From: Verrucomicrobiota bacterium | Lineage (GTDB): Bacteria > Verrucomicrobiota > Verrucomicrobiia > Limisphaerales > UBA11358 | Length of the DNA stretch: 33,308 bases | Direction of reading: 5' to 3' | Assembly (NCBI GenBank): GCA_028872915.1 | Contig: JAGWNY010000034.1 | Coordinates: forward strand, 1 to 33,308 | Shown here: piece after piece, positions 2,749-25,891 of the stretch | Position numbering within the stretch: the first letter of the stretch is position 1 | How the letters are laid out: every line of letters starts with the position of its first letter | Notes under the pieces: model-generated | Database searches by the model: none | What the model saw: only the letters and a program-made list of their open reading frames with translations | What the model was told of the DNA's origin: nothing | Position numbers and translations under genes: made by a program

Positions 2749-2892
2749 TCGTGGTTTAACGATGACGGCAAGGCGGCAGCACGACAGGGAGTTTAGCGCA
2801 ATCTTGCGCAAATAACTACAGCAATTCTCAAATTGCCAGGAATCCACCAGTTTTTGAGACGCGCAAAATTTGGCGAAAGGGATGGACGCGCG

Positions 2893-2920
2893 TTGACATT
2901 GGGCTTTTCGGAGGTAGTCT
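2893..2920 (+). promoter_or_regulatory. Candidate promoter of the pseudopilus ATPase cluster
   Basis: A consensus TTGACA (2893-2898) is followed after 16 bases by TAGTCT (2915-2920), which matches the -10 consensus weakly. It lies about 40 bases before the ATPase start at 2959, in the 210-bp divergent gap with thiG. No clear operator is visible around it. Confidence 0.45.
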
Positions 2921-2958
2921 GTTTCAACCCACTCCACAGGCAAAAATGGGAGTGGGAG

Positions 2959-4674: not shown

Positions 4675-4692
4675 GAGAACGAAGGAATTTTT

Positions 4693-5817: not shown

Positions 5818-5824
5818 CGAGCCT

Positions 5825-7540: not shown

Positions 7541-7551
7541 CGTCCAACATT

Positions 7552-8841: not shown

Positions 8842-8913
8842 AGGAGCCGGCCAATCTACGGATGAGCCGGGATGGGTCGAACGGGTCAAATTGTTAAAAA
8901 AGTGAAAAAAAGT

Positions 8914-8944
8914 GGTTGACAACCTTTATGTTATTGTGTAAATA
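8914..8944 (+). promoter_or_regulatory. Strong candidate promoter with overlapping palindrome, ahead of the toxin-antitoxin pair
   Basis: A consensus TTGACA (8916-8921) and TAAATA (8939-8944) are spaced by 17 bases, about 60 bases before the toxin start. A perfect palindrome GGTTG-A-CAACC (8914-8924) covers the -35 box. BrnT/BrnA-type pairs are commonly self-repressed by the antitoxin, so this palindrome is a good operator candidate. That assignment is inferred. The surrounding 100 bases are visibly AT-rich compared with the genes on either side. The promoter could also feed the downstream pseudopilin genes. Confidence 0.6.
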
Positions 8945-9003
8945 CATTGTAACGACAAAGCATTGGCGTTCTATTTACAATCCAATGGGTTTTGGCTTTG
9001 GTT

Positions 9004-9288
9004 ATGGAATTTGATTGGAATAGCTCGCCCTTTGACGCGTGCTCTTTGACTCAGCGCGAAATCGAGGAGTCGTTCGAGGACCCTTTCGCGATCCGGCTCC
9101 TGCCCGATTCGCCGCGCTTCGGTGCCCAGGCGCGTTTTTTCAACCTGGGTGCCTCGGCGGGCGGCGTGGGCATTTTCAGTGTTTACCGGACCAACGGCAG
9201 GCAGGTGCGGGTGCTCCACGCGCGGCAATTCGAGCCGGAAGAACGTTTTTTTTACCAACGTAAGATGGATCAGACGCTGGCGCCGTGA
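9004..9288 (+). CDS. brnT: BrnT-family toxin (putative ribonuclease)
   Basis: This 94-aa protein starts at the ATG at 9004; a TTG at 9-12 bases upstream is in frame but unnecessary. BrnT proteins are RelE-fold ribonuclease toxins that inhibit translation. The family pattern is visible throughout: the opening MEFDWN, the central SFEDPFAIRL (23-32), a strand FFNLGAS, and the closing RQVRVLHARQFEPEERFFY (66-84), which corresponds to the conserved RIISAR-x-A-x-x-xE-R-x-x-Y ending. The usual NxxKHG near residue 15 is not conserved, so this is a diverged member. It precedes its antitoxin with a 37-bp gap, in the toxin-first order typical of the family. No strong ribosome-binding site is visible. 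Confidence 0.72.
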   Translation: MEFDWNSSPFDACSLTQREIEESFEDPFAIRLLPDSPRFGAQARFFNLGASAGGVGIFSVYRTNGRQVRVLHARQFEPEERFFYQRKMDQTLAP

Positions 9289-9325
9289 AGCGGCCGGGCG
9301 GGTGTCGCGGGAATGAGAAAACAAG

Positions 9326-9601
9326 ATGAGAACATTCAGCAGTTGGGAAGAAGTGCCGCTCTTCGATAGCGAGGAAGCGGAGGCGGAGTTTTGGTCCGAG
9401 AACAGGCCGGACCTGCGGTTGATGGACGCCGCGATGTCCGACAGCATGGAGGCGTCCGAATCGGTGACCATCACGCTGCGGATGGACCCGCGGATGCTGG
9501 CCCGGATCAAGCGGCTGGCGCGCTCGCGCTATTTGAACTATCAGAGCATGATCAAACAATGGCTGAGCGAACGGATGGAAACAGAACTGAGGGAACGATG
9601 A
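9326..9601 (+). CDS. brnA: BrnA/CopG-like antitoxin
   Basis: This is a 91-aa ribbon-helix-helix protein. The N-terminal part PLFDSEEAEAEFWSEN (11-26) matches the (F)xSExEExEFW motif of the CopG-type antitoxins that accompany BrnT. The C-terminal part (about 47-91) is a ribbon-helix-helix DNA-binding domain: a strand SVTITLRMDP, a helix with RIKRLARSR, and NYQSMIKQWLSERM. It should neutralise the toxin and repress the shared promoter. Its stop codon overlaps the next gene's ATG (ATGA at 9598-9601), so the first pseudopilin is translationally coupled to the antitoxin. This linkage is unusual for a mobile toxin-antitoxin module. Confidence 0.78.
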   Translation: MRTFSSWEEVPLFDSEEAEAEFWSENRPDLRLMDAAMSDSMEASESVTITLRMDPRMLARIKRLARSRYLNYQSMIKQWLSERMETELRER

Positions 9602-10323
9602 AAGAAATGAGAAAATTCGGAAGGAGCAGCCGCCTACGGAGCGCCCTCGAAGGATCGAAGGTATTGGCCGCCTTCACCCTGATCGAATTGCTGGTGGTCA
9701 TTTTGATTATCGGGATACTGGCGGCGTTGTTGATTCCGGTGGCGGGCGCCGTCAAGCGACATCAGGACATCAGCCAGGCGCAGGCGGAGATGGGGCAGTT
9801 GGAAACGGCCATCGCCGATTACAAGAATGATCGCGGTTATTATCCCCCCGGCAGCGATCCGACCGGATTAACCAACCAGCTTTATTACGAACTGGCGGCC
9901 ACGGTGCTCACCAACAACGGTCCGACCAGCGTCTTTCAGACGTTGGACGCGAGTGCATTCATCAAGACGGTGGACGTGCCCAATGCGTTCAACAGACTTC
10001 CCGGCTTTGCGAACAGTAATCGGGGCGGTGATACAAAGTCGTGGACGGCGCGGGATTATCTCCCGCAACTGAAGCCAAACCAGCTTGGGACGTTTCAAAG
10101 CGGTGGTGTCTGGATCACAAACTTGGTGACCGCCGTCGGCGGACCGGATGGACTCTACCGGCCGCTGGGCGTGGATGGTGTGAATCCCTGGCGCTATCTT
10201 TATCCCGGAACCAATAATCCAACCGGATATGATTTGTGGGTCCAACTGCGGATCGGCGGCAACAAATACCTCGTCTGCAATTGGACCCGGAACGTTGAGC
10301 TGAACAATACCCGGTATCCATGA
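9598..10323 (+). CDS. Pseudopilin, GspG-like (major-pseudopilin type), first copy
   Basis: This 241-aa secreted pilin-like subunit starts at the ATG overlapping the antitoxin stop. A 25-residue basic leader precedes the class III signal, cleaved before Phe26 in LAA|FTLIELLVV, with Glu30 at the conserved +5 position. The -1 residue is Ala and not the usual Gly. The hydrophobic helix runs to about residue 47, followed by an amphipathic stretch and YKNDRGYYPP, as in GspG. Near the C-terminus, NPWRYLYPGTNNPTGYDLW is a degenerate form of the GspG DPWG-x-PY segment. It has weaker calcium-site features than the next gene. A 15-bp gap separates it from the following pseudopilin. Confidence 0.85.
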   Translation: MKEMRKFGRSSRLRSALEGSKVLAAFTLIELLVVILIIGILAALLIPVAGAVKRHQDISQAQAEMGQLETAIADYKNDRGYYPPGSDPTGLTNQLYYELAATVLTNNGPTSVFQTLDASAFIKTVDVPNAFNRLPGFANSNRGGDTKSWTARDYLPQLKPNQLGTFQSGGVWITNLVTAVGGPDGLYRPLGVDGVNPWRYLYPGTNNPTGYDLWVQLRIGGNKYLVCNWTRNVELNNTRYP

Positions 10324-10338
10324 GGACAAAGGTCAATT

Positions 10339-11118
10339 ATGCGAATTGAAAAAAGACAGGGCTTCACGCTGGTGGAATTGCTGGTGGTCATCAGCATCAT
10401 TGCCATTCTGGCGGCGTTATTGTTGCCCGTGCTGAGCGCGGCCCATAAACACGCGTTGATTGTCAAGGCCAGGCTCGAAATGAACGAGATTGCCACCGCC
10501 GTCGAAGGTTACGATTCCACCTACGGCCGGTTTCCGCTGTCGCAATACGAACAAAATGTGGGCAGCACCAACGACCTGACGTTCGGCGGCGCGTTTCTAA
10601 AACCGGACGGAACAACGGTTTTGGTCGGCACTCCAATGGACGGTTCGGGCGCCGTCTCGAACAATGCCGACGTGATGGCAATTTTGATGGACTTGACCAA
10701 TTATCCCGCGGGCGGCGCGACCATCAATTACAATCACGTGAAAAATCCCCAGAAACAGGTGTTTTTGAGCGCGCCGACTGTGGCGGACACCAATTCGCCG
10801 GGAGTGGGGCCGGACTTGGTTTATCGCGATCCGTGGGGGCATCCTTACGTGATTTCGATGGATGCAAACTACGACGAGTTGTGCCGGGACAGTTATTATG
10901 GCCTTCAAGTTGTTTCCCAGACACAATCCGGGGCCTCGAGCGGATTCAACGGCCTGTTCAATCCCAATCCAAACCCCTCCACCCAATTGCAAAAGGATGA
11001 CTTTGTGTTTCGGGGCAAGGTGATGGTTTGGTCGGCGGGGCCGGATGGCAAGGTGGACCCCTCCGCGAATGCCATCAGCATCCCCAACAATGACAATATA
11101 TTGAGCTGGGCGCCATGA
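10339..11118 (+). CDS. gspG: Pseudopilin GspG-like (major pseudopilin)
   Basis: This 259-aa protein has a short 8-residue leader and a canonical processing site QG|FTLVELLVV with Glu13. It is predicted to be the main subunit of the pseudopilus in the inner membrane and periplasm. The C-terminal part has the family's diagnostic elements: YRDPWGHPYV (about residues 163-172), and SAGPDGKVDP followed by NNDNILSW. These correspond to the DPWG-x-PY and S-x-GxDG...DI-x-W calcium-site region of GspG. At 259 aa it is much longer than the about 140-aa enterobacterial GspG, because of an insertion between the helix and the DPWG segment. AAAGG lies ahead of the start, and the stop overlaps the next ATG (ATGA). 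Confidence 0.87.
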   Translation: MRIEKRQGFTLVELLVVISIIAILAALLLPVLSAAHKHALIVKARLEMNEIATAVEGYDSTYGRFPLSQYEQNVGSTNDLTFGGAFLKPDGTTVLVGTPMDGSGAVSNNADVMAILMDLTNYPAGGATINYNHVKNPQKQVFLSAPTVADTNSPGVGPDLVYRDPWGHPYVISMDANYDELCRDSYYGLQVVSQTQSGASSGFNGLFNPNPNPSTQLQKDDFVFRGKVMVWSAGPDGKVDPSANAISIPNNDNILSWAP

Positions 11119-12029
11119 AGAACGGACGAAAAATTCCTGATGCGGCCGGGCTGGGTGCCATGATGGGCCGGGGATTCACCTTGGTCGAAATGCTCGTTGT
11201 GATTTCGATCCTGGGTTTGCTCGCGGCGCTTGCGGTGCCGGCCATCAAGAACATGGGGAAGGCGGACGCGGGATTGGGCGCTTCACAGCAGTTGCTCGAT
11301 GATATTGGCCGGGCGCGGCAATTGGCCATGGCGAACGACACAACCGTCTATATGGTTTTTGTGCCGACCAACTTCTGGGCCGTCTCGACCAACGTCGCTG
11401 GGCTTGGCCCTCAACTCCAATTTCAAACGCTTAACGCCGTCTCGAATCTCATGGACAAGCAAATGACCGGTTATACGTTCATGTCCTACGGTCGGGTGGG
11501 CGACCAGCCCGGACAGCACCAATGGCGCTACCTGGAGCCGTGGAAAAACCTGCCGGAGGGAACGTTTATTGCCGAACAAAAATTCAATCAGGCGCCCGCC
11601 ATTTATTCTTATTCTTCGACGAATGCCCTCGTAATCACAAACCAGATTACGGGCCGGAAATTCTATGTTTATGGCTTCGCGACGAACGGGGGGCCTACGT
11701 CGCCGCTCCCTCCAATTCCGTTTCCACTTGAAACAACCCCGACGAATGTTGGCCCCGTTTCCCTGCCTTACATCGCGTTCAATTATCAGGGGCAACTGGT
11801 TCAATGGCGGTATGGCGTGGAGTCCCTGGCCGCCCAGGATGAAATCATCCCGCTCTCGCGGGGGGCGGTATTGCCGGCGTTGGCGAACAACGCAACCCGG
11901 AACTATTCATTCGATTCGCCGCAGGTGCTGGAATCGCCCCCGGGCAACGGCACCAATGCCGCGTTTACGCTGGTGGATGTGGACGCGCTGACGGGCCGGG
12001 CGACGTTGCAATTTGAAAAGGTTCAATGA
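11115..12029 (+). CDS. Minor pseudopilin, GspH/FimT-like (Verru_Chthon cassette D-type)
   Basis: This 304-aa pilin-like protein has a 20-residue leader and site RG|FTLVEMLVVISILGLLAA, with Glu25. The segment right after the helix, LLDDIGRARQLAMANDTTVYMVF (Leu61 onward, split here for length), is the GspH/FimT hallmark: a helix with AR-x-x-A followed by an N-x-(T)V-x-(L/M) strand. GspH is a minor pseudopilin binding near the tip. The order and size match the D-type protein of the four-gene 'Verru_Chthon cassette' described from Verrucomicrobium and Chthoniobacter. That match is made from memory of family features, not by a search. It overlaps both neighbours by ATGA. Confidence 0.75.
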   Translation: MKNGRKIPDAAGLGAMMGRGFTLVEMLVVISILGLLAALAVPAIKNMGKADAGLGASQQLLDDIGRARQLAMANDTTVYMVFVPTNFWAVSTNVAGLGPQLQFQTLNAVSNLMDKQMTGYTFMSYGRVGDQPGQHQWRYLEPWKNLPEGTFIAEQKFNQAPAIYSYSSTNALVITNQITGRKFYVYGFATNGGPTSPLPPIPFPLETTPTNVGPVSLPYIAFNYQGQLVQWRYGVESLAAQDEIIPLSRGAVLPALANNATRNYSFDSPQVLESPPGNGTNAAFTLVDVDALTGRATLQFEKVQ

Positions 12030-13018
12030 GGACGGAATCGACATCGGCCGGAAATGGCCCGCGGCGGGGAGCGGAAAAAACGCGTGGATTTACGATGATG
12101 GAGATTGCCATCAGTCTGGCGGTGATTGGCATTGCGCTGGTGGCCATCCTGGGAGTCCTGCCTCTGGGATTGCGCATGCAGCGGGATAATCGCGAACGCA
12201 CCGTCATCGCGCAGGACGCCACCGTCTTCATGAGTGACATGAGCAAGGGTTTGCAGGGGGCCGATGACCTCACGAATTACGTCTTTGCCATCACCAATTA
12301 CTGGTTCTCCACGAATCCGGTGGACAGGACGGGCAACGCGGGAGTGGACGGTTATGGCTTTCAAGGCTCGCAAATCACGAGCGTGGGCGCGAGCATGGGC
12401 CCGCCACAGGAATATCCCATTACCAACGGCCTGCGGATCATTGGTCTGATGGACACGCCGGTATATACGGATACCAATGGAGCGCCAATTTCAGCCGCTG
12501 AATTCGCGCTGGGGGGCGGTCGCAGCAATTACGTTGTCGCCGACGTTTATTCATTGAGCGGCCCGGCGGTGGAAAAACCGCCTCAGAACAATCCATTGGC
12601 GGTGCAGAGCGGGCTGGGCTACCAGATTGTCTGCCGCAATTCGCCGGTCGCACCGCCCTGGCAGGCGCGGGGGCCAGAGCCTTCCTATCCTCCCGGCGCC
12701 ATTATTCCTGATATTTTAAACGGCCGGGAGACGTATTGGCGTTGGGAGGGGACCAACTGGAGCTTGGGCAAGGCCCCTCCTGCATCGCCGTGGTTTCAGC
12801 TTCTGGGCTTTTATCCCAGCCAACTGTCGGCGGACCTTCACAACCTGCAGCTTGTCTTTTACTGGCCGCTGCTGCCCAATGGCCAACTGCCGCCGGCGCC
12901 CATATCCCAAAGCTACAACACCCTCGTCGCCGGCGAACTTGTCCAGACCGCGTATCCGGTCGGTTCGGTCAGCAACCTGTATTTCTTTGCCCCGCAAATT
13001 TTCACCAACGCGCCATGA
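12026..13018 (+). CDS. Minor pseudopilin, GspI/PilV-like (Verru_Chthon cassette B-type)
   Basis: This 330-aa protein has a 21-residue Arg-rich leader and processing site RG|FTMMEIAISLAVIGIALVAI, with Glu26. The LGVLPLGLRMQRDNRER stretch after the helix is like the A-x-x-xLP(L)G segment of GspI/PilV-like proteins. The rest is an extracytoplasmic domain rich in Asn, Thr and Pro with no recognised fold. Its place after the H-like and before the J-like gene is the canonical I position in type II secretion operons. Translational coupling is by ATGA on both sides. Assignment to I rests on order and N-terminus. Confidence 0.72.
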   Translation: MRTESTSAGNGPRRGAEKTRGFTMMEIAISLAVIGIALVAILGVLPLGLRMQRDNRERTVIAQDATVFMSDMSKGLQGADDLTNYVFAITNYWFSTNPVDRTGNAGVDGYGFQGSQITSVGASMGPPQEYPITNGLRIIGLMDTPVYTDTNGAPISAAEFALGGGRSNYVVADVYSLSGPAVEKPPQNNPLAVQSGLGYQIVCRNSPVAPPWQARGPEPSYPPGAIIPDILNGRETYWRWEGTNWSLGKAPPASPWFQLLGFYPSQLSADLHNLQLVFYWPLLPNGQLPPAPISQSYNTLVAGELVQTAYPVGSVSNLYFFAPQIFTNAP

Positions 13019-14034
13019 ACGGTAAATTCACAATGGGATGGAGTTTGCGCAATCGCTCGCCGTCGTGGAGTGCGGTGGCTGTGACACCGCTTTCGAACAT
13101 GACGGGAGCCGGGAGGGAAGCAGGCGCGCGGGCATTTACGCTCATTGAGGTCATGGTGGCGATGGCGCTGCTGACGCTCATTGTGATTGCGTTGATGGCG
13201 GTGTTCAACAGCACGCAAAAGGCCTTCCGCGCAAGTGTCACCCAGACGGATGTGCTGGAGGGAGGCCGGATTGTGATGAGCATGATGGCGGATGATCTTC
13301 GCGGCGCGGCGCCGTCATGGGGCCAAAGCAATTTTTATGCGGGCGCGGTGAATTTCTACGTCAATACGAACGCCTATTCAACCAGCTATCCGGCGCCGCT
13401 GGAGCAGTCGCTTGCCCCGGGCGATACCGTTAGGGCAAACGCATTGGAAGGTTTCTTCGTGTTGCATCATCAAAACCTGGATTGGAGCGGCGTGGGATAT
13501 GCCGTCGCGCCGCGGGCCCCGGATGGCGGGCTTTATGCGCTTTACCGCTTTGAATATCCATCCAACGGCGCGCCGGTGAACGCCGGACGGATCAATCCGG
13601 GTTTCATTTTTACGAACCAGTTCCAAAAGTTTCTCAACGCGCCGACCAATGATGTTCCGGGATATAGCCGCCTGATGGACGGTGTGGTGGATTTGACCAT
13701 CCGTGCTTACGACATCCATGGCGTGCTGATGACCAACAATTACCTCCTGAACCCAATCAGCGCCGCGAACGCGATCACAACCAACCGGAACGCCTATTAT
13801 TTCCCGCCGACTCAGGCCCTGGCGTCCGGCGTCGAGGGATTTGAGACGTTCAGCAACACCTTGCCGGCGTCGGTCGAGATAGAGATGGGGGTGCTGGAGG
13901 ACCGTGCGTTGCAGCGCGCGGAATCGCTGGGCGGGATCGCGCGGAGCAATTATCTGTGGGGGCAGGCTGGGGCCGTCCACGTCTTTCGCGAGCGCGTTTC
14001 CATTCCGAACATGGACCCCGCCGCTTATCAATGA
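13015..14034 (+). CDS. Minor pseudopilin, GspJ/PilW-like (Verru_Chthon cassette C-type)
   Basis: This 339-aa protein starts at the ATG overlapping the previous stop. Its leader is long (40 residues) and ends RA|FTLIEVMVAMALLTLIVIAL with Glu45; Ala again occupies -1. The in-frame ATG at 13033 would shorten the leader by six residues and is also possible. GspJ-like features are the IEV-(M/L)-(V/I)-A-(M/I)-A opening, FNSTQKAFR, and the helix EGGRIVMSMMADDLRGA (about 83-99), which corresponds to the R-x-(M/L)-x-x-(M/L)-x-x-DLR segment of GspJ. It is probably part of the I-J-K tip complex. The downstream gene overlaps by ATGA. Confidence 0.75.
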   Translation: MNGKFTMGWSLRNRSPSWSAVAVTPLSNMTGAGREAGARAFTLIEVMVAMALLTLIVIALMAVFNSTQKAFRASVTQTDVLEGGRIVMSMMADDLRGAAPSWGQSNFYAGAVNFYVNTNAYSTSYPAPLEQSLAPGDTVRANALEGFFVLHHQNLDWSGVGYAVAPRAPDGGLYALYRFEYPSNGAPVNAGRINPGFIFTNQFQKFLNAPTNDVPGYSRLMDGVVDLTIRAYDIHGVLMTNNYLLNPISAANAITTNRNAYYFPPTQALASGVEGFETFSNTLPASVEIEMGVLEDRALQRAESLGGIARSNYLWGQAGAVHVFRERVSIPNMDPAAYQ

Positions 14035-17000
14035 AGACACGAAGAACAAATGACGAGTCGGGAATTGCGCTGGTTGTCACGCTCATTTTGATGGCGGTGG
14101 CCTTGGTCATGGCCGTGGCGTTTCTGGCCATCAGCCGCCGGGCCAAAGGATCCGTCGCCACGCAAACGAACGGGACCGCCGCGCGGTACGCGGCGGATGC
14201 GGCGCTGGCTGGCGCCGAGGCGCAAATCGTGGCAACCATCATGAGCGGCGGGACCAATACCCACGGCCAGATCGCCGCCGATCCTTGCGGCTTTGGCCTC
14301 GTCGTTTCCACGAATGACATCTCCACAAACGCATTTTCACAGCCCGCGTGCGTCGGATTTGCCAATGTCAGTTACTACTACGCCAACGGCAACGTCGTGG
14401 GCGGAGACGATTTTAACCAGGTCCTCACCAATCTCTATTATGATCCGCGCGTGCCGGTGATGATATCCAGCAATGAACCCGCCGGGCGCTTTTACCTGGA
14501 CCTCAATCGAAACGGAAAATTCGATGCCAATGGGTTTGCCGCGGATGTTATCAGTAATGGCGTCGGAGTGGTTACCAACGGGAACAGCTTTCACGTGGGC
14601 GACCCGGAATGGATCGGCATTCTGGAACATCCGGACGCGCCCTATGGGCCGGACAATCCCGCCGTGGCCCGTTATGCCTTCATCGCCGTGCCCGTCGGCA
14701 ACGCCTTGGACCTGAATGCGATCCATAATCAGGCAATGGTCGTAATGAACAATCAGAGCAGGTATAGAGCGCCCGTGAACCCAATGACACGCGGTCAGGA
14801 TTATTTCTTCCGGAATCAGGGCGTCGGCTCTTGGGAGTTGAATCTGGCCGCGTTTTTGGCGGATTTGGACACCAACCAGTGGGGCGCAATGGTTGGGTCG
14901 GGGCCAACACCTCCCGGCTACGATGCGAACTTTTACTGGTATAATTACCCGCTCGCGGGGCGGGGCTACCAGGGTTACGCCTTCGACGACGCTTTTTCCC
15001 TGATCACAAACCGCTACGCGGCGAATTATGATTCGCTGGCGACGAATGTCTTCAATGGAGTCGGTGACATTGACTATTACAACGACGGGCCGTTGATGAC
15101 CGGATTTTCTCCCATCTCGGAAACCTTTTACGTCAGGGGCGTGCCGCCGCCCTGGGTCGGTTCGGACAACACCAACCATTTCTTTGACGAGCCGGATGAC
15201 CTGTTTGATCCGGCGCAATCGTCGGCCGGATTCGTCCAGCGCCTCACCGCCGCCGGCGCCGCCGCCGCCACTTATGATCGCTACTCCTATTACCGGTTGC
15301 TGTCGCAATTGGGCACGGACAGCGATCCGGATTCGGGAAAAATGAATTTGAATTACGACAACGTGGATGCGAATGGCAGCGTTGTTGACGGGGCCGAAAC
15401 GAATTTCATTTCCTGGACGCCGCTGGGTTTTTTCACGAATGCCGCGAACCGGCTGCTGCTGGCCTATACGGCCGATTGGGCCGCCAATTACGTGCCCACG
15501 AACAATGGCGTCATGATTCCGGTCCTGAACTCAAACTTTTGGGCCACGTTCAGCGTAACCAACGCCTTTGGCGTTGGCGACATCCCGGTGCTGGTGAGCA
15601 ATCGTTTTGTCTATACCCCCGCCGTCCAACGCCTCCTCCAGCTTGCCGCCAATATGTACGATGCCACCACCAACAACACATACAACGGCTCCCCGGACTG
15701 GCCGGATGTATTCCGCCCGCTCTTTTCGCGCGATACCAACGGCAATGTCTTCATCACCGGCTACACCAATGTTTATCCCATGGGACAGATGAATGGTTAT
15801 CCCGTGGAATCTACGAATGGTTATCCCCTGGCCCTGCCGGTGGACGTGACCAGCCTTCCGGTAAACGTCTATAACATGGTCACGAACGTCTATGGCGTGC
15901 CGTGGATTGTGGGGGCTAAAAAGGGCTATCCCAATTTCAATAAGTTTCAACTACAGACCATATTTTCCATGACGCGCAAGCTGCAATACACCCGCACGAC
16001 AGCGGGTCCTCGTATTACCATCAAAGCTGACCCTGGCGACTATACCCTATCGCAGGAGCTTCTACTTTCGGTGACGAACCTGTTTGGAGTGGAATGCTGG
16101 AACTCTTACTCAAACGATTTCAAGGGCAGGATTTCCATTTCCGTCACGGGCACCAATATCGTCACGTTGACTAATGATGAAGGAGCGTTGTACCGGGCCG
16201 GTGCGTCTTACGCCGATTTCATCAGTCCTCCAACAGTATCGGGAACGTTCACGAACCTTTCGGATTGGGAGGGATACAATCCGTCGTCATCCACATATTA
16301 TGCGCCTCTGAATTTCATCGTGCCGTTCAATACGCAGGGGAACACGAACCTGGCGTGGTCGAATTCCGAAGGACCGCCAAACTCGCCAAACGTGGCTCCC
16401 CTGCCGGATGCGACCTACCGCTTTGACACGCGCCTGTTTGACACGAGCGGGAGGACGAATTTCTACAAAGTGCCTCCCTATCTGCAACCGCAATGGACGT
16501 TGCTGACAACCAATCGCTTCCGCGTCATCATTTTCGACCAGGACGGCTCCGGCATTTATCACGTCATTGACTACGTTCAACTTGCCGGACCGGACAGCAC
16601 GATAGCGGCGACAAACTATGTCGCCCCCGGCGCAACCAATACCGTCTATGACGCGCCGCAATGGGACACCAACCTGATTAAGAGCGGAATACCGTGGGGA
16701 TTTGCCAATCAGCTCGCCGTGTCGCAGGACCAGCCCCGGTATTATGTTGACCCGTCCAATAACCACATCTACGACTGGGGTGGCTCGGGCGCCATTGGGG
16801 AATACAATGTGGATCCGACGATGGTTTACCGCGTTGAAGACGAAATAGACGGGTTTGAGGCATTTTTAGGTAGTAGCTTGTCGTATCCAAATGTGCCCGG
16901 TGAAAGCAATATCGTAGCCACGGCGGAGCAGAGTACCAACCAACAAGTGCCTTTCACCCCGACAGAAACCATCGTCAAGACAACCAAGTGGGAGGCGAAC

Positions 17001-18140
17001 GATCCGCTGGTCCATTACACGGCCAGCGACTTGACCGATTTGAACCAGACCGCCAATGAATTGAATTATTTTTACAAAGACCCGGTAATCCCCCCGTTGG
17101 TCTATAACAAGGTAAACAGCCGTTACATGCCGTGGGGAGGGCCGTCGCTCTCGGCGGCCGGCACGGACCCAAGCCCCTTCAATCCGGCCTTCAAAGACCC
17201 GGGTATGTGGGATTCGGATGGTTGGAATTTTCCGGCGGCAAAACTGCCGACGGTTGGCTGGCTGGGGCGCGTCCATCGCGGAACCCCCTGGCAGACGGTC
17301 TATTTGAAGGCATCGAACATTCTCGATGAGACCAATGCGGTCGGAGCCAATATCGGCGTCAACACCTGGCTTTATTGGACGGGCGATGGAAATCTCTACG
17401 ATGACATGAATTCGGCGCCGGCTTGGGACCGTCTGCTGTTCGATTCGTTCACAACGGCCGTTGGCGACAATTCCACGCGCGGCCAGCTTTCGGTGAACGT
17501 GGGTTCGGCAGCCGGTTCGGGCAGTCTGGCGGCGTGGTCGGCGTTGTTCAGCGGCGTTCAAGTCCTCTCAAACACGGCGCCCGACGCATACCTCGGAACG
17601 GCATATCGGCCGCCCATGTTTTACACGAGTTTTCCCATTGATCCAGCCGGCCCGCAGGGCTACTCGTCCGCGCTCGGTGAACTGGCCGCCAATATTGACC
17701 AGACTCGCGCGGCATTCACGAACCGGGACGGTTTGGTGGGAGTCTTCGAGCACGCGGGCGACATTCTGGCTTCCCCGGCGCTGACCGAAGGTTCGCCCTT
17801 CCTCCACCTCTCCAACTACGTCGCCGGCGTCGGTTGGGTGCCGGATGAAGCGCAGCAAACCAATGGCATGAATGACGCCATGTATGAGTGGCTGCCGCAG
17901 CAGATCATGTCGTTGGTCAGGCGGGGCGCGCCGCGCTACGTGATCTATTGCTATGGCCAGGCGCTCAAGCCAGCCCCCGGCGGCATTGACATCAACCCGC
18001 TCAACCCCGCCTTCTTTGGCATGGTCACGAATTATCAGGTGGTGGCGCAATCCGCCGCGCGGGTGGTGCTGCGCGTCGAAGGCACGCCGCCCAACGCGCA
18101 TGTAGTGATCGAACAATACAACGAGCTGCCGCCGGATTAA
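14031..18140 (+). CDS. Giant GspK/PilX-like tip protein (Verru_Chthon cassette A-type)
   Basis: This 1369-aa protein occupies the K position of the pseudopilin operon. The N-terminus is a basic leader, then SG|IALVVTLILMAVALVMAV without Glu at +5, as in GspK. It is followed by ISRRAKG and an alanine-rich amphipathic helix (AARYAADAALAGAEAQI, about 46-62) typical of GspK/PilX. Two GspK-like NLN motifs follow: ALDLNAIHNQ near residue 225 and SGKMNLNYDN near 436. Typical GspK is about 300 aa, so some 1000 residues are extra. The extension is rich in Asn, Tyr, Thr and Pro, has few Cys and shows no recognised domain. It is probably an exposed tip or adhesin-like ectodomain. The start at 14031 makes an ATGA overlap. 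A new promoter follows the stop. Confidence 0.75.
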   Translation: MKTRRTNDESGIALVVTLILMAVALVMAVAFLAISRRAKGSVATQTNGTAARYAADAALAGAEAQIVATIMSGGTNTHGQIAADPCGFGLVVSTNDISTNAFSQPACVGFANVSYYYANGNVVGGDDFNQVLTNLYYDPRVPVMISSNEPAGRFYLDLNRNGKFDANGFAADVISNGVGVVTNGNSFHVGDPEWIGILEHPDAPYGPDNPAVARYAFIAVPVGNALDLNAIHNQAMVVMNNQSRYRAPVNPMTRGQDYFFRNQGVGSWELNLAAFLADLDTNQWGAMVGSGPTPPGYDANFYWYNYPLAGRGYQGYAFDDAFSLITNRYAANYDSLATNVFNGVGDIDYYNDGPLMTGFSPISETFYVRGVPPPWVGSDNTNHFFDEPDDLFDPAQSSAGFVQRLTAAGAAAATYDRYSYYRLLSQLGTDSDPDSGKMNLNYDNVDANGSVVDGAETNFISWTPLGFFTNAANRLLLAYTADWAANYVPTNNGVMIPVLNSNFWATFSVTNAFGVGDIPVLVSNRFVYTPAVQRLLQLAANMYDATTNNTYNGSPDWPDVFRPLFSRDTNGNVFITGYTNVYPMGQMNGYPVESTNGYPLALPVDVTSLPVNVYNMVTNVYGVPWIVGAKKGYPNFNKFQLQTIFSMTRKLQYTRTTAGPRITIKADPGDYTLSQELLLSVTNLFGVECWNSYSNDFKGRISISVTGTNIVTLTNDEGALYRAGASYADFISPPTVSGTFTNLSDWEGYNPSSSTYYAPLNFIVPFNTQGNTNLAWSNSEGPPNSPNVAPLPDATYRFDTRLFDTSGRTNFYKVPPYLQPQWTLLTTNRFRVIIFDQDGSGIYHVIDYVQLAGPDSTIAATNYVAPGATNTVYDAPQWDTNLIKSGIPWGFANQLAVSQDQPRYYVDPSNNHIYDWGGSGAIGEYNVDPTMVYRVEDEIDGFEAFLGSSLSYPNVPGESNIVATAEQSTNQQVPFTPTETIVKTTKWEANDPLVHYTASDLTDLNQTANELNYFYKDPVIPPLVYNKVNSRYMPWGGPSLSAAGTDPSPFNPAFKDPGMWDSDGWNFPAAKLPTVGWLGRVHRGTPWQTVYLKASNILDETNAVGANIGVNTWLYWTGDGNLYDDMNSAPAWDRLLFDSFTTAVGDNSTRGQLSVNVGSAAGSGSLAAWSALFSGVQVLSNTAPDAYLGTAYRPPMFYTSFPIDPAGPQGYSSALGELAANIDQTRAAFTNRDGLVGVFEHAGDILASPALTEGSPFLHLSNYVAGVGWVPDEAQQTNGMNDAMYEWLPQQIMSLVRRGAPRYVIYCYGQALKPAPGGIDINPLNPAFFGMVTNYQVVAQSAARVVLRVEGTPPNAHVVIEQYNELPPD

Positions 18141-18226: not shown

Positions 18227-21200
18227 ATGAAAAAAAGTTCGCCCCTATGGATGGTGTTGTGCCTGCTCCTGCTCGCCGCGGGCGCGTGGTTAATCTGGCA
18301 TTTTGGCGGCCGCCCTGCCATGCATTCTCCGTCCGCACGGTTGGTTCGGACGGCGCCGCGTCCCGGTTTGCCGTGCAATCCATCGGCAGCGCCGAAATTT
18401 CCCAAACAGGCGCTGGCGAGCCAGGCAACGAACCAATTGGCGTTGCGCTTGAGCAATACGAGGGAGCCATTGGCGCAATTGATTCACAACAGCCACGCCA
18501 TCTTGCTCGAAAATGCCTTCATTGACACAAGCAAGCCTTTGAATCTGGCCATTCCGGCGCATTTGCGCGCCAAAGGCGACGCCGGCGCTTACATCGTTCA
18601 AGCGCAAGGACCAATAGGCACGGCTTTTCGGGCGACCCTGTCGCAATTCGGCGCCACCATCGTTTCCTACATCCCCAACAACGCGTATCTCGTGGAACTT
18701 GATGCAACTAACGCCGCCGAACTGGCCGAAGAACCGGCGGTTCAGGCGGTGATTCCATACCAACCGTATTACAAAATTGATTCGCTCCTGTTGCCCCGAG
18801 CCGTGGCCAATCATCCGCTGCCCGATGGGAAGCTGTTGACTCTCGGCCTGTATGCGGACAGCGCAAACCGGACGATTTCCGAAATCGAAAATATGGGCGG
18901 CCAAATCGTGGACAACGGCGGTTTCAATTCGCCATTCGGGCCGGTTGTCACGGTGCGCCCGCCGCGCAATTGGACGGCTCTGACAGGGCTGCGCGGCGTG
19001 CAGATCGTCGAACCCTTTCTGCCCCGGATTTTGGCCAACGATTTGAGCCGCGCGGAAGACGCGGTGGCGGCAAATTCGGTGACCGCAAGCAATTACATGA
19101 ACCTTTCAGGTTCAAACGTGCTGGTCGAAGTGGATGATTCGGGCATTGATACGAACCATCCGGATTTTAAAGGAGCCGGGGTCTTGCGCGTTTTATTCAA
19201 TAATCCAGCCAATGGTCAGGACATTGATGGCCACGGAACGCACGTGGCGGGCATTATCGCCGGAGACGGTTCGGAGTCCGAAACGGTGACCAACGCATCA
19301 GGCTCGATCATTACCAACACGGCGGCGTTTGCCGGCCTCCCCCGCAATGCGCGCCATGCCAACCCCTTTCAATTTCGGGGCATGGCCCCTGCCGCCAGAT
19401 TGTTCGCCATGAACTTTAATGATTCCGATTACGACCTTCAGGAGGCGGCCGCGAAAACAAACGCGCCCATCTCGAACAACAGTTGGAATTTCTCCGGCGA
19501 CAACCTCTATGACCTGGCGGCCGCCAGCTATGACGCCGCCACGCGCGACGCCCTGCCCGAGGCCACCGGGTCGCAGCCTGTTCTCTTCGTATTTTCCGCG
19601 GGCAATTTTGGCAACGGCAACAACAGCGGCGGCGGCGGTTCGGCCGATACCATCCTCTCGCCCGCCACCGCCAAAAACGTGGTGACGGTCGGCGCCATCG
19701 AGGAATTGCGCGACATCACCAATATCGTTACCGACGCCAACAGCAACCAAAGCGCCATCTGGCAGCCGGAAACCGACACGAGCACGGAAGTGGCGTCGTT
19801 TTCGAGCCGGGGCAACGTGGGCATAGGTACCGAGGGGCCGTTTGGGCGGTTCAAGCCGGATGTCGTCGCGCCCGGCACGTTTGTCGTCTCCACCCGTTCC
19901 AGTGAATGGGACATCACCAATTATTTCTATCAGAATCCGACAAACTACGACGTGCAGACGTACTCCGGCTTGATTGTTCAATCCGGATCAACCTATTCCA
20001 CGGGATTTCCGGCCATCTCGGATAACACGATTGGGGTTGCTATTAATCTCTATGCCAACCCGGATTCGCCCAGTCCATTTCCCACGAACCTCCTGCCCAT
20101 CTATGTCGGATTGACGACTTCGCCTGGATACGACTTTTTCAAGACGGATGGCGCCGTCAACATTCCGCCCGACGGCGGAGCGGGTTATTTGGACCAGATC
20201 AAGAACACCGAGACTTTTGACGGCTTTTACTATGCCGTGAGCAATGCCACCACCGAGCCGGTGGATTTCGACCTGACCACGACGGTTATCACCACCAACG
20301 CCGTCGGCAATGAATCGCTCGTCTTGAGCAACCTGGACGAGAGTATCGGAGTGCCCAATCCCCTCGGCACCGGACCGGGGCCGTATTACCGCTATGAATC
20401 GGGCACGAGCATGTCCGCGGCGGACGTCTCGGGCGCGCTGGCATTGATGGAGGATTTCTTCATGAATCACAGCTCGCTCACAAATCCCAGCCCCGCCTTG
20501 CTCAAGGCCATGCTCATCAATGGAGCGCGCCCCACGGCATCCTACGATCTGGGCGTCACCAACCCCATCAATTACGAGGGCTGGGGCCTCGTGAATCTGT
20601 CCGACTCTCTGCCACCGGCCATTTGGACTAATTTCGACGGCGCCGCCCCGTCCTCAATGTTTCTCCAGGACCAGAGTCCCACCAATGCCCTCGCCACGGG
20701 CGACAGCCGCGCTTATAACGTCACGCTCTCCACAAATGCCGTGAACCAGGGCCTGCGCGTCACGCTCGCGTGGACGGACCCGCCAGGCGACCCGGCGGCG
20801 GCCGTCAAACTCGTCAACAACCTGGACCTGGTCGTCACCAACTTGGACAACGGGAACGTTTACTTTGGCAATGACATCCCCGCCGGTGCCCTTGATAACG
20901 AGGCATGGAATACGAACTCAATTACCAACGCCGTGAACGTGGCGGATTCCGTCAACAACGTCGAGCAAGTCATTTTACCGGCCCCGCTGGGTACCAACTA
21001 TTCTGTCACGGTGATTGGCCGGGACGTGAACGTAAATGCCGTGACGGCGCAGACAAACAATGCCGCCGGCGCTTACGGCCCAAACACGGTGCAGGATTAT
21101 GCGCTGGTCGTCAGTTGCGGCGGCGGGGCCGTGCCGGATGCCATTGCGTCCGTGACAATGGCGGGCGCAATCGCGTTTACCAATCGGGTGACTGACGTGA

Positions 21201-24200
21201 CGGAGGTGACGAACAATGATTCGGCCGTCGGCGCGCTGATGGATCAATTCGTGGGCGCCAGTTCGCCCCTGATGGGCACCAACCAGGTTTCCCTGGGCGC
21301 CGGAACGCCGTGGAGCCCCGAAGGCGCCATTACGCTGGGCGAAACCAACCAGTGGCATTTTTACGTGGTCACCAACTCGCCGCAAAACCCGTCCGACTTC
21401 ACCAACGCCGCCTTCATCACCTTTTTGGCGCCCACCCTTTCCGTGCCGCGCATGGGCGTCTTTGCCGATTCCATCACCAACGCCACCCGGCCGGAGGCGG
21501 ACATTGACCTTTACGTGACGACCAATGCGAACCTGCTGATCTTGGACCCGGCTGCCGTTTCCGGCGCCGACAAGTCAGTGGGCCGCGGCGGCACGGAGTT
21601 CGTCGCCTACAACAATTCGTCGCGCGGAACCGTTTATTACGTCGGCGTCAAGTCGGAGGACCAGATGGCCTCTGAATACAGTTTTATGGCGGTCTTCACG
21701 CGCATTCCCTTCAGCCAGAACACCAATGGCAATGAAGTGGTCAACGGGATCGGGTTGCCGGCCATCATCCCCGACGGCGCGCCCACCCATCCCGGCATTA
21801 CGAACATCCTCCTGCTCGCGCTGACACCCATCCAGATCGGCGACGTGGTGGTGACCAACGTGATTTTCCATCAAAACTTCGGCGACCTCATCGGCACGCT
21901 CGAACACAAAAATACCGTGACCGGCGGCGACGTGGCGGACGTGCTCAACAATCACGACGCGCTGGGAACGGGAACCTTCACGAGCGTGTATGACGACGGA
22001 AGCACCGTCCCGAATCCGCCCGCCAGGAAATCGGATGGCCCCGGCAGCCTGCAAAGCTTTGTTGGCATGGAAGGCATGGGCCTGTGGTTGTTGGCCGAGG
22101 AGGACGATTCGCCCGGCCAGACCGGTGTCGTGGAGAATGCCTCCATGCTGCTCGTCAGACATCATCGGCTGAACAAGGGCGTGACCGCGAGCATTGCCCC
22201 CGGCCAGGTTTATTACGATTTCGTTGACGTGCCCGCGGGCGTCACCAATCTCACCATTGACGCAACCAACATTACCCAACCTCCTGACCTGGCCAATCCG
22301 CTTGAAATGGTTTTGAAATTCGGGAGTGAACCCACGTTGACCGACGCCGATAAGGGACCCGTCCTGCTCAATTTGGGAACTCCGCCCGGCAATTCCCTGT
22401 CCGTGGGACCCGCGGACGTGCCGCCCATCCAGCCCGGCCGTTACTGGATCGGCATCACGAACCGGAGCGCCTTAACGCAAACCGTCTATATCGTAGCGAA
22501 CCTGGCTTATCAGGGCGAAGGCTCATTGGTGGATTACACCGGCAGCGGTTTCTCGCCCATTTTGGATGACGCCGTGGCCTACTCGACGAACTTTGTCGGC
22601 AGCACGTTGCCCGTGGCGTCGGTAAACGTGGGCATCATGGTCCAGCATCCCCGCATTTCGGACCTGATTTTCCATCTCATCAGCCCCAACGGCACCCGCG
22701 TCCTCCTCATGGAAAACCGCGGCGGCGCCGATACAAACGGCGCGGGCGCGGTGGCGGTTACGGCAACGACAAACGTCATTCCGATTACACCAACGTTGGT
22801 GACAAACGTAACCTTTGAAGGTGTGACCGCTGCTGATTACACGAACGGTCAATCTGCCGGGCAATGGGCGGTAATGGCAAACCAAGTTAGCGTGGTCGCT
22901 GATCCGTTGACCGCCAATAATGGAACCAATTTTTTGGCATTGGCGAATGGAGTGCTTTCAGGGGCGGTGGCGACCGTACCGGGAAGCACCTATACACTAA
23001 CATTGGTCTGTCGCGGTCCAGGTATTGTCGGCTGGTGGCGTGGTGAGAGCAATTACGTGAACTCCGTTGACGGTGTTGCGGCAACCAATAATGAGGAGCA
23101 GTTCGTAAGCGGTGAAGTCGGCGATGCATTTAATTTTAATGGCACAACAAACTATTTGACAGCGCCGCCAAGCACCAGTCTGGCTGTTTCAAATTTGACG
23201 TTGGAAGCCTGGGTTTACTCCACCGACCAGAGCTCGGAGCGGCCTGTAATTGATTACAGCCAATCTGGTAGGTATGCAGCAATTCAGTTTTGGATCAACA
23301 CCACCGGATTCACTTCTGTTAATCCCGGTGGAATTCACGCCGTTATCCGCTATGATCCGAACTCATTAGAGGTGGATGATGGAAACGATGTGGTAACGAT
23401 GAATCAATGGCACGATATAGGATTCACCGTAAACGCTACAACCGGGAAGGGAACTATTTATTGCGATGGAAGCTCCCTGAACTCCGGGATGGCAACGTCC
23501 ACACCTGTTGCCCCTCCGTCATTTGAGGACGTGAATATCGGATACAGGGACGCGATGGCGACTGAACTCCTGGCAGGCTATAAATTCCTTGGCGACCTAG
23601 ACGAGGTTTCTATCTATAACCGTCCTTTGTCGGACTCAGAGATGCTAGCCATACACAGTGCCGGAACGGCAGGCAAGTTCGATCCGGTTGAATTCGCTGT
23701 TTCACCGACAGAAAGCCTTGCCGAGGCCAACGTTAGCGTAAATGGCCAAACTCCCACCACCATTTATGGTGATAACACAACCTGGCAGGCTAGGACAATC
23801 GCGTTTACCGCAACCAAGAGTTCAACGCCCATCCGAATTTCTGGGGCTGATCCCGGTCTGCTGCTCTCATCGGTGACAGTCACGAATACGGGGATCGCAG
23901 ACATGCAAACGAATAATTTGTATCTCACCTTCACCGAAGACACGAATTTAACCCTGACGCCAATTAAATACGCCATTCCGCCCTTCGTGCCGAACACAAA
24001 TACAGTCGGCGTACTCGCCGACAGTTTTGAAGGCTATGCGGATGGAACTTACACGACCGCCTTCGGTCCGTGGGATGTGAACACCAACCAGGTGATCATT
24101 ACAAATAACTGGCCCGCCTATGACGGAACCAATTTCCTGGCCCTGACGGATGGCTCGGTGTCAACCTCCCTCCCGACCGTGGCCGGACAGCACTACGTCC

Positions 24201-25891
24201 TGCAATACGCGCAAGGCGTCACGCCGCAGGAACTCTATGTGGCCAACTATGGCAACAGCACCGTCGAAAAATTCGATTTAACCGGTGCGGGATCGCCGTT
24301 TGTGACGGCAAACCTGTCCGGCCCCGTATATCTCGAATTCCATTCAAACGTGTTGTATGTCGCAAATTATAGTCTGAACACGATTTCGGAGTTCGATTCA
24401 AGCGGGGCATTTCTTGGCGCGATCAGCTCGGGCGTCAATGGACCCAGGGCCGCGGCCTTTGACAATAGCGGCAATCTCTATGTCTCGAATTTTGGCAACG
24501 ACACAATTGAGAAATTTGTGGGCGGCGTGCCGTCGGTTTTTGCCAGCGCGGGTGTTTACCGCCCAGCCGACATCGTTTTTGATTCCAGCGGCAATCTTTA
24601 TCTGGCCAGCATTGGCACGAACGTCATCGAGAGATTTAATACAAGCGGCGCGGGCACGGTTTTCGCCACGGGCGTCGGCCGGCATCACGGGCTGGCCTTC
24701 GACAGCAGCGGCTATCTTTACGCCGCCGACTTTGACAATAATACGATCGAGAAATTCGATACCAACGGAAACATGTCTGTTTTTGCCTCAACAGGCGTGG
24801 ATCAGCCATACGGCCTGGCTTTTGACGGCAGCGGCAGCCTTTATGTGGCGAACTGGGGGAATGACACCATTGAGAAATTCAACGCCAATGGCGTCGGTTC
24901 CGTCTTTGCCAGTGCCGGCCTGAAGAAACCAATCGGAATGACTTTCTCAGATGTCGGCGCCGTCAATGCGGATTGGCAGCCGGTCGTCACGAATTTCGTG
25001 GCAACTGAAAATGGAACAACCTTGCTGCTGCAAGGGCTGCCTCCTGGAACAGCGGCAAACGAGGGAACAAATCAGATGACCCTCGCGTTCCCCACGAACA
25101 CGCTGTTGGACGCCTTCAACCTCACCCAGGTTCCAGGCGATCTTTATTACCTGCCAGAAGAATCGCTGGACGCCTTTGACGGCGAAAGCGCCTATGGACC
25201 ATGGGTCCTGGAAATCCAGGACACCCGCGCCGGCGCCGATCTCACGAACCTGATCGTCAGTTGGAAACTGGACTTCACCTTTGCCGAGACCAATCCCGTC
25301 CCCGGCACGCTTGAAGGCGGCCTGCTGCAGTCGAATCTATTCCTGCCCGCCGCCGATATCGCCTGGTATCAAGTGTCAGTGCCGACAAACGCAAGTTTTG
25401 CCACGAACATCCTCCTCTATGCCACCGCGCCGGTAAACGTCTGGTTCAGCACCAATTCGCCGCCAGGCATCACCGGCATCGGCGATACAAATTTGATCCC
25501 AGGTTCAACGGGCGGGTCGGCAACGCTCACGACCAACGGCCTGCCGTTTATTGTCCCGGGCGGGACTTACTACCTCGGCGTGCAAAATACCAACGGCGTC
25601 ACCGTTAATTACGGCATTGAAGTCCTGTTCGATCGGGGGAACGTGGCCGGCGTCAGCAGTGTGAACATCAGCGGCATCGTGGTCTCCGCCACCGCCATTA
25701 CGTTGAACTGGACGGCGTCGCCTGACGCCCAATTCCAGGTCCAATGGACGGATGACCTGACCCAGCCATGGAACACCGTTTCCCAGGCGATTACATCCAG
25801 CGATGGCAATTTCACCTTCACGGACGATGGCTCCCAAACGGCCCCGCTCGGTCCACAGCGGTTCTATCGGTTGGTGGAAATTGCGCCGTGA
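18227..25891 (+). CDS. Giant secreted subtilisin-family (S8) protease with P-domains, LamG and NHL-type repeats
   Basis: This 2554-aa extracellular protease has a signal peptide or anchor (about 7-27) and a prodomain (about 95-190). The S8 catalytic domain shows Asp304 (VDDSGID), His336 (DGHGTH), the oxyanion Asn460 (FSAGN) and Ser728 (SGTSMS). A beta-sandwich follows at about 825-965. A complete proprotein-convertase P-domain spans about 1200-1312 (FGDLIGTLEHKN ... GMEGMGLWLLAEEDD). A second P-domain starts at about 1435 (ISDLIFHLISPNGTRVLL) but resumes only at about 2278-2355 (ESLDAFDGESAYGPWVLEIQD). Between the halves lie a LamG domain (about 1598-1818), a six- to seven-bladed NHL-like repeat (about 2002-2242, repeated LYVANxGNxTIEKF) and flanking jelly-roll halves. 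The C-terminus is an Fn3-like module ending FYRLVEIAP. It follows the pseudopilin operon and is a plausible secretion substrate. Confidence 0.88.
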   Translation: MKKSSPLWMVLCLLLLAAGAWLIWHFGGRPAMHSPSARLVRTAPRPGLPCNPSAAPKFPKQALASQATNQLALRLSNTREPLAQLIHNSHAILLENAFIDTSKPLNLAIPAHLRAKGDAGAYIVQAQGPIGTAFRATLSQFGATIVSYIPNNAYLVELDATNAAELAEEPAVQAVIPYQPYYKIDSLLLPRAVANHPLPDGKLLTLGLYADSANRTISEIENMGGQIVDNGGFNSPFGPVVTVRPPRNWTALTGLRGVQIVEPFLPRILANDLSRAEDAVAANSVTASNYMNLSGSNVLVEVDDSGIDTNHPDFKGAGVLRVLFNNPANGQDIDGHGTHVAGIIAGDGSESETVTNASGSIITNTAAFAGLPRNARHANPFQFRGMAPAARLFAMNFNDSDYDLQEAAAKTNAPISNNSWNFSGDNLYDLAAASYDAATRDALPEATGSQPVLFVFSAGNFGNGNNSGGGGSADTILSPATAKNVVTVGAIEELRDITNIVTDANSNQSAIWQPETDTSTEVASFSSRGNVGIGTEGPFGRFKPDVVAPGTFVVSTRSSEWDITNYFYQNPTNYDVQTYSGLIVQSGSTYSTGFPAISDNTIGVAINLYANPDSPSPFPTNLLPIYVGLTTSPGYDFFKTDGAVNIPPDGGAGYLDQIKNTETFDGFYYAVSNATTEPVDFDLTTTVITTNAVGNESLVLSNLDESIGVPNPLGTGPGPYYRYESGTSMSAADVSGALALMEDFFMNHSSLTNPSPALLKAMLINGARPTASYDLGVTNPINYEGWGLVNLSDSLPPAIWTNFDGAAPSSMFLQDQSPTNALATGDSRAYNVTLSTNAVNQGLRVTLAWTDPPGDPAAAVKLVNNLDLVVTNLDNGNVYFGNDIPAGALDNEAWNTNSITNAVNVADSVNNVEQVILPAPLGTNYSVTVIGRDVNVNAVTAQTNNAAGAYGPNTVQDYALVVSCGGGAVPDAIASVTMAGAIAFTNRVTDVTEVTNNDSAVGALMDQFVGASSPLMGTNQVSLGAGTPWSPEGAITLGETNQWHFYVVTNSPQNPSDFTNAAFITFLAPTLSVPRMGVFADSITNATRPEADIDLYVTTNANLLILDPAAVSGADKSVGRGGTEFVAYNNSSRGTVYYVGVKSEDQMASEYSFMAVFTRIPFSQNTNGNEVVNGIGLPAIIPDGAPTHPGITNILLLALTPIQIGDVVVTNVIFHQNFGDLIGTLEHKNTVTGGDVADVLNNHDALGTGTFTSVYDDGSTVPNPPARKSDGPGSLQSFVGMEGMGLWLLAEEDDSPGQTGVVENASMLLVRHHRLNKGVTASIAPGQVYYDFVDVPAGVTNLTIDATNITQPPDLANPLEMVLKFGSEPTLTDADKGPVLLNLGTPPGNSLSVGPADVPPIQPGRYWIGITNRSALTQTVYIVANLAYQGEGSLVDYTGSGFSPILDDAVAYSTNFVGSTLPVASVNVGIMVQHPRISDLIFHLISPNGTRVLLMENRGGADTNGAGAVAVTATTNVIPITPTLVTNVTFEGVTAADYTNGQSAGQWAVMANQVSVVADPLTANNGTNFLALANGVLSGAVATVPGSTYTLTLVCRGPGIVGWWRGESNYVNSVDGVAATNNEEQFVSGEVGDAFNFNGTTNYLTAPPSTSLAVSNLTLEAWVYSTDQSSERPVIDYSQSGRYAAIQFWINTTGFTSVNPGGIHAVIRYDPNSLEVDDGNDVVTMNQWHDIGFTVNATTGKGTIYCDGSSLNSGMATSTPVAPPSFEDVNIGYRDAMATELLAGYKFLGDLDEVSIYNRPLSDSEMLAIHSAGTAGKFDPVEFAVSPTESLAEANVSVNGQTPTTIYGDNTTWQARTIAFTATKSSTPIRISGADPGLLLSSVTVTNTGIADMQTNNLYLTFTEDTNLTLTPIKYAIPPFVPNTNTVGVLADSFEGYADGTYTTAFGPWDVNTNQVIITNNWPAYDGTNFLALTDGSVSTSLPTVAGQHYVLQYAQGVTPQELYVANYGNSTVEKFDLTGAGSPFVTANLSGPVYLEFHSNVLYVANYSLNTISEFDSSGAFLGAISSGVNGPRAAAFDNSGNLYVSNFGNDTIEKFVGGVPSVFASAGVYRPADIVFDSSGNLYLASIGTNVIERFNTSGAGTVFATGVGRHHGLAFDSSGYLYAADFDNNTIEKFDTNGNMSVFASTGVDQPYGLAFDGSGSLYVANWGNDTIEKFNANGVGSVFASAGLKKPIGMTFSDVGAVNADWQPVVTNFVATENGTTLLLQGLPPGTAANEGTNQMTLAFPTNTLLDAFNLTQVPGDLYYLPEESLDAFDGESAYGPWVLEIQDTRAGADLTNLIVSWKLDFTFAETNPVPGTLEGGLLQSNLFLPAADIAWYQVSVPTNASFATNILLYATAPVNVWFSTNSPPGITGIGDTNLIPGSTGGSATLTTNGLPFIVPGGTYYLGVQNTNGVTVNYGIEVLFDRGNVAGVSSVNISGIVVSATAITLNWTASPDAQFQVQWTDDLTQPWNTVSQAITSSDGNFTFTDDGSQTAPLGPQRFYRLVEIAP

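Follow-up and report, generated by a model that had tools for sequence, protein, structure and literature searches.

The stretch of DNA analysed here (the window) comprises 33,308 nucleotides of contig JAGWNY010000034.1 from a Verrucomicrobiota bacterium (Limisphaerales) and carries the gene of a large, putatively secreted S8 (subtilisin-like) protease. The gene (18227..25891, + strand, as are all features below unless stated) is a single open frame of 2554 amino acids with an N-terminal hydrophobic signal. Our results indicate that the second P domain of this protein is probably a two-socket scaffold with nested, recombining guests, and taken as a whole we have good confidence in this explanation. 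Socket 1 would be a surface loop between the ENRGG strand and the YLTFTEDTN strand, and socket 2 a surface loop between PIKYAIPPF and YLPEESL. In the window, each socket is predicted to be filled by a DUF642-like beta-sandwich of carbohydrate-binding type, which would itself have one socket after its Y-x-L strand, occupied by a LamG domain in socket 1 and by an NHL propeller in socket 2. Profile comparisons among relatives showed the pieces, their order, their mirror-image nesting and the changes of occupant, and in the predicted model of one relative (L093) the three P pieces come together across two inserts as a single furin-like P domain.

The second P domain was recovered in three pieces. 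The first (residues 1442-1508, 22550..22750) ends in ENRGGADTNGAG, scored 113 bits with the P1 profile and corresponds to PF01483 positions 2-53, which matched residues 1464-1516 at 33.9 bits, over the 21-bit cut-off. The middle strand between the sockets (residues 1899-1920, YLTFTEDTNLTLTPIKYAIPPF, 23921..23986) scored 45.6 bits. The last piece (residues 2298-2352, 25118..25282), running from YYLPEESLDAFDG to GPWVLEIQD, scored 75 bits; its residues 2313-2350 matched PF01483 positions 51-86 at 19.6 bits, just under the cut-off when the piece was scanned alone. With a whole-protein score of 45.4 bits, the domain is thus assigned to the full length of the PF01483 profile, in two pieces about 796 residues apart. 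An earlier note on this DNA had described a second P domain that is split and resumes with its canonical second half about 790 residues later, which agrees with our result; it had placed the break at about residue 1480, whereas we found the first break near 1508.

The same note had put both DUF642-like domains in one insert, and this part did not hold. Pfam detects the outer two P pieces only, and the middle piece emerged from aligning relatives with very short inserts, in which its consensus is YLTFTEDTNxTTTPIKFAxPPF. The strand was found in 134 of the 135 homologues with both outer pieces, a set drawn from 120 listed proteins, the open frames of 53 loci and the window (10 more sequences had one outer piece only), and relatives in which one socket or both hold almost nothing (L032, L045, L057) have kept it too. 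Since the conserved middle strand lies between the outer pieces, the P domain should have two sockets, each DUF642-like domain sitting in its own loop. Because the insert region itself served as query for the 120 listed proteins, that set is biased towards LamG, NHL and DUF642 inserts; 48 loci were found by the P1 pattern RxLL[MA]ENRG[GA], without insert bias and restricted to sequences holding the pattern. In this pattern-based set, 44 of the 48 loci had the middle strand, and both sockets were measurable in 40. Insert lengths fell into classes of about 0-20, 93-127, 362-410 and 780-940 residues for socket 1 and about 0-18, 133-170, 314-444 and 503-612 for socket 2.

Both DUF642-like domains of the window had been described as split, and N-terminal and C-terminal (N and C) halves of both were found with a profile of 146 columns built from 22 unsplit socket-2 domains of relatives, seven lectin inserts of the same size class being excluded. 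In socket 1, the N half (residues 1523-1596, 22793..23014; positions 8-85, 47 bits) is followed by a LamG guest (residues 1600-1823, 23024..23695) and by the C half (residues 1826-1875, 23702..23851; positions 87-134, 21 bits). The guest belongs to PF13385 (4.4e-18; 66.3 bits against a cut-off of 27.6) and scored 213 bits with a LamG profile. In socket 2, the N half (residues 1921-1997, 23987..24217; profile match 1921-2003, positions 2-91, 58 bits) precedes an NHL beta-propeller (residues about 2003-2244, 24233..24958) and the C half (residues 2245-2295, 24959..25111; positions 107-145, 9.5 bits, i-Evalue 4e-5 in a one-sequence search). The NHL guest is identified by its repeats (PF01436) and by its propeller fold, with propeller matches and a predicted local distance difference test score (pLDDT) of ~90+ in the AlphaFold2 (AF2) model. 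The N halves end in YTLTLVCR (socket 1) and YVLQYAQG (socket 2), so the interruption right after the YxL strand, once by LamG and once by an NHL-like repeat, falls at the same point in both with different guests, as had been noticed before. The window's separate DUF642 halves gave no PF04862 match and were assigned solely through the unsplit relatives, whose socket-2 inserts reached the curated PF04862 cut-off in L022 and L063 and fell short of it in L052 (18.7 bits) and L045 (none).

The suggestion of a preferred insertion site was borne out through the family. Among 141 distinct inserts of at least 300 amino acids, 115 carried a single N half followed by a single C half. The N half ended at model position 88 (median; quartiles 87-90) and the C half started at 88 (86-92) of 146, with a guest of median 233 residues between them. 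A DUF642 match at E < 0.5 appeared in just 4 of 106 distinct socket-1 inserts of 85-130 amino acids, which have another fold, and these are stray; the half matches in large inserts are therefore beyond chance.

Occupants were diverse at both sockets. The 149 distinct socket-1 inserts comprised 106 CUB-like domains, 28 DUF642 domains around LamG in simple form (both halves detected in 22, one half missed or merged in 6) and 6 empty sockets; the rest were LamG parts in swapped order (3), one each of C-type lectin, intact DUF642 and an insert without parser label (the legume lectin of L062), some deeper nests, and a single insert that could not be parsed. "CUB" is our label for the common socket-1 occupant and not a family membership: Pfam CUB was absent from L026 and L049, and Foldseek gave only weak rows to C1s CUB. 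At socket 2, the 149 distinct inserts were DUF642 around LamG (53), a nested class of DUF642, LamG parts and C-type lectin (29), intact DUF642 (24), DUF642 around NHL (16), empty (8), C-type lectin (7) and others (12). Pfam matched DUF642 (L022, L063), Lectin_C (L024, L029, L052) and Lectin_legB (L062) in the inserts, and no family in the inserts scanned from L045, L026, L049 and L059. Detection at E < 0.01 misses some halves, as in 14 parsed rows (e.g., 'D( L' without its C half). The L062 legume-lectin domain (PF00139, 9.4e-14) occupies the same socket that has the LamG-bearing DUF642 in the window. As a separate observation, LamG appears circularly permuted, its second half preceding the first, in socket 1 of L050 (frame residues ~1520-1754) and L060 (frame residues ~1412-1640); L106 received the same parser label.

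In relatives LamG also acts as a host, as judged from its profile matches, for a C-type lectin or for another DUF642; C-type lectin within LamG characterises a large class of them. The deepest example was socket 1 of L063, where, with a LamG profile built from 82 unsplit guests, the order was DUF642 N half, LamG N half, DUF642 N half, LamG N half, full DUF642, LamG C half, DUF642 C half, LamG C half and DUF642 C half, an exact mirror. Counting the P domain, this gives six levels (P, DUF642, LamG, DUF642, LamG, DUF642). The two DUF642 shells are 69% alike in their N halves and 61% in their C halves, and their LamG bodies 35%. P0001, which stands closest to the window in the core tree, has five levels in socket 1, and P0006 has four in socket 2. 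The many socket occupants, LamG as host, the deeper nesting and guests moving between sockets all go beyond the earlier note. A wider reading, for which we see about even chances, is that P, DUF642 and LamG form a recursive exchangeable grammar, each with a fixed socket taking other domains, host copies included, while guests recombine between sockets and lineages. Genes would then grow or shrink by whole modules inserted into modules, and the recombination of guests would take place at conserved edges. If true, such a grammar would be a natural system by which a protease displays binding modules combinatorially.

In the predicted model of L093, all three P pieces aligned on furin 457-572 across two inserts, and the halves failing to pack into single domains, the outcome named beforehand as contrary to nesting, was not seen in this modelled relative. 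Once the inserts are ignored, the fold is thus predicted to be that of the proprotein convertase P domain PF01483 (furin, Kex2, Aeromonas sobria serine protease), from which it differs in that two loops carry whole nested domains. When PDB was searched by sequence, the minimal P domain found no more than a weak match to the A. sobria protease (E 0.0056), and the window stretch found propellers only. Foldseek and VIA searches with the window model likewise listed propellers only; its LamG, DUF642 and P parts were not reached by these searches. Unsplit socket-2 inserts matched PF04862 and the folds of carbohydrate-binding modules (CBM4, CBM16, CBM22) and so resemble DUF642 and CBM_4_9-type modules, but in the protease family the domain is often split at one loop, hosting LamG or NHL. 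An intact upstream P domain had been proposed as an internal control (residues 1179-1318, 21761..22180). The assignment is supported by PF01483 matches at E <= 0.1 in 13 of 25 orthologous segments, that of the window being among the 25 (best 2.4e-6); the window's own copy is diverged and had no Pfam match when scanned. Profile-profile comparison of the upstream segment with the minimal second P domain was weak (probability 9.5, E 0.0034).

Occupants also changed repeatedly. On a core tree of 131 sequences (FastTree without bootstrap, with coarse state labels), at least 20 changes were needed for the socket-1 state and at least 41 for the socket-2 state. For example, L032, with both sockets nearly empty, and P0105, with DUF642 and LamG in socket 2, formed a fully supported pair and were identical at 56 of 60 positions at the P1 start. 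We compared host and guest histories in 79 DUF642(LamG) cassettes (51 from socket 2 and 28 from socket 1). The joined DUF642 halves needed 5 socket-label changes against a shuffled mean of 23, and the halves singly 8 and 7; in neither case was any of 500 shuffles as low. The LamG guests needed 21 changes against a shuffled mean of 23 (as low in 89/500 shuffles for the socket-2 label and 73/500 for socket 1), at least 12 of the 21 being forced by supported branches. Distances of N and C halves correlated at 0.705 (socket 1 0.646, socket 2 0.771), and those of N half and LamG at 0.331, with a non-significant 0.102 at socket 1. These comparisons indicate that LamG guests move between sockets more freely than their DUF642 hosts. 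The LamG in socket 1 of P0003 and that in socket 2 of P0059 are 80% identical, while the cores are 64% and the DUF642 hosts 68% identical; the window's own LamG (socket 1) was closest to the socket-2 guests of P0020, P0024, P0022, P0018 and P0011. Conservation along LamG is higher at the edges (majority fraction 0.68 and 0.74) than over most of its middle (0.28-0.55), which makes recombination at the edges plausible. A tree from the edges alone was also mixed (19 changes), so the edges may travel with the guest. Silent cassettes in the same genome were considered as a source of variation, and nothing supported them: a search of the assembly (completeness 93%) with residues 1513-1897 returned, besides itself, one distant LamG-like match (G000:C45:9532-10347, 27% identity, one TGA in the aligned frame).

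Three other explanations were weighed. That the P domain is interrupted only once, by about 790 residues holding two split jelly rolls side by side, fits the two P pieces seen by Pfam, but we hold it to be extremely improbable and rejected it, as the 1899-1920 strand between the jelly rolls, conserved even with nearly empty sockets, already contradicts it. Only slightly less improbable is an arrangement without true nesting, in which what we call halves would be small domains in their own right, or tandem repeats that have decayed, strung one after another. In its favour, the match is weak for some halves (9.5 bits) and tandem full copies do occur (P0032, P0038, L023, L043). However, the model position at which the halves join is the same in the large majority of simple inserts, the L063 order D( L( D( L( D )L )D )L )D (D, DUF642; L, LamG) is exactly mirrored, N and C halves share one history despite a differently behaving guest between them, and the P pieces of the L093 model superpose on one furin P domain. 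It is also unlikely, though less so, that the architecture is right and no guests are exchanged, with ancient LamG lineages in both sockets, differential loss, and trees mixed by fast LamG evolution. LamG is indeed conserved less well than the core, its identity exceeds that of the core in few pairs, and many forks in the LamG trees are unresolved, but branches with strong support require at least 12-13 changes of socket, and the P0003/P0059 guests exceed both their cores and their hosts in identity.

The preferred explanation, a two-socket scaffold with recombining guests, also has observations weighing against it. With LamG taken at the host column number (147), the tree had 19 changes (at least 13 forced), 12/500 and 18/500 shuffles were as low, and slight socket clustering remains; at socket 2, the correlation of N half and LamG (r 0.371) was significant, so guests are not fully decoupled from hosts. 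Few pairs had a higher identity in LamG than in the core: 10 of 793 compared across sockets and 13 of 970 within the same socket. No middle strand was detected in L061; 26 of the 141 large inserts were not of the simple form, being nested, tandem, partly detected or without match (L059), and P0055 and L059 do not parse. The socket-2 C half is the weakest of the window's four halves. The window AF2 model is poor (mean pLDDT 69, predicted template modelling score 0.42), and most of LamG and of the P middle strand stays under 50-70 pLDDT. For the L093 model, P domains were absent from the top 50 Foldseek rows and appeared only after VIA re-alignment, whose ranges give the first and last aligned residue only.

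Under the two-socket explanation, guest modules may be replaced through recombination between related genes, aided by conserved edges, while the catalytic core, the P domain and the DUF642 hosts would be inherited mainly vertically, and the sockets would be insertion-tolerant surface loops. LamG, lectins, CBMs and NHL are carbohydrate- or protein-binding fold classes. As a putative function, the displayed modules may direct the protease to changing targets by binding to a matrix of polysaccharide or protein, and an adjoining type II-secretion-like system may export it.

Our search of openly licensed papers found nothing on this protease family. Insertions occur in about 20% of multidomain proteins, and recursive insertions with six-level nesting are reported for SI3 of the cyanobacterial RNA polymerase beta-prime subunit (PMC13114784). 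The likeness lies in domains inside inserted domains, at six levels in SI3 as in L063; SI3 is described there as largely one domain class (hybrid motif) in one protein, whereas the protease family has unrelated folds in fixed sockets, varying between relatives and apparently exchanging. Polymorphic toxin systems are also large secreted proteins with exchangeable modules, but the exchanged cassettes are C-terminal there (PMC3482391), and lie in loops of internal domains here. P domains of large planctomycete proteins have been proposed to serve in peptidase anchoring and activation (PMC6461901). The origin of nested discontinuous domains is usually inferred from single end products. The living relatives of the protease include, at these same sockets, empty, singly filled, doubly filled and six-level states side by side, and since host and guest histories are statistically separable, the stepwise building of nested proteins becomes directly testable. 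The P, DUF642 and LamG loops are candidate natural insertion-tolerant sites for protein engineering. Furthermore, linear domain annotation splits such proteins into false single or partial domains.

The protein was assigned to the S8 subtilases by its Peptidase_S8 domain (best Pfam stretch residues 295-563, 19109..19915; PF00082, 1.5e-34) and by Asp, His and Ser motifs (VDDSGID at 302, GHGTHVAG at 335, SGTSMSA at 725). Pfam and NCBIfam scans identified no toxin domain in it. Some match to it was present in 58 of 59 relatives searched, counting any part and including other S8 proteases; named genomes with related proteins belong to Verrucomicrobia subdivision 3, Limisphaerales and Pedosphaera. 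Downstream of the P domain, the tail was highly variable in L024, L030, L033 and others (frames of at least 4000 amino acids), with repeated tailA and tailB segments.

Upstream of the protease lies a GspK / Verru_Chthon-cassette-A-like gene (13956..18140, 1394 amino acids; weak NCBIfam matches, E 0.0017 and 0.0042). When window 13956-18140 was compared with relatives L075-L121, this neighbour was kept in 29 of the 31 loci whose upstream DNA exceeds 2.5 kb (not in L106 and L121), which suggests a dedicated secretion link. Type II secretion / type IV pilus-like genes occupy 2833..14034, with three T2SSE ATPases, T2SSF and several N-methyl pseudopilin-like proteins; the three T2SSE-type ATPases are consecutive (2833-7540), two of them with MshEN domains. 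Downstream, on the opposite strand, is an AddB-like helicase-nuclease gene (26624-29986, -; ADDB_N 4.5e-57).
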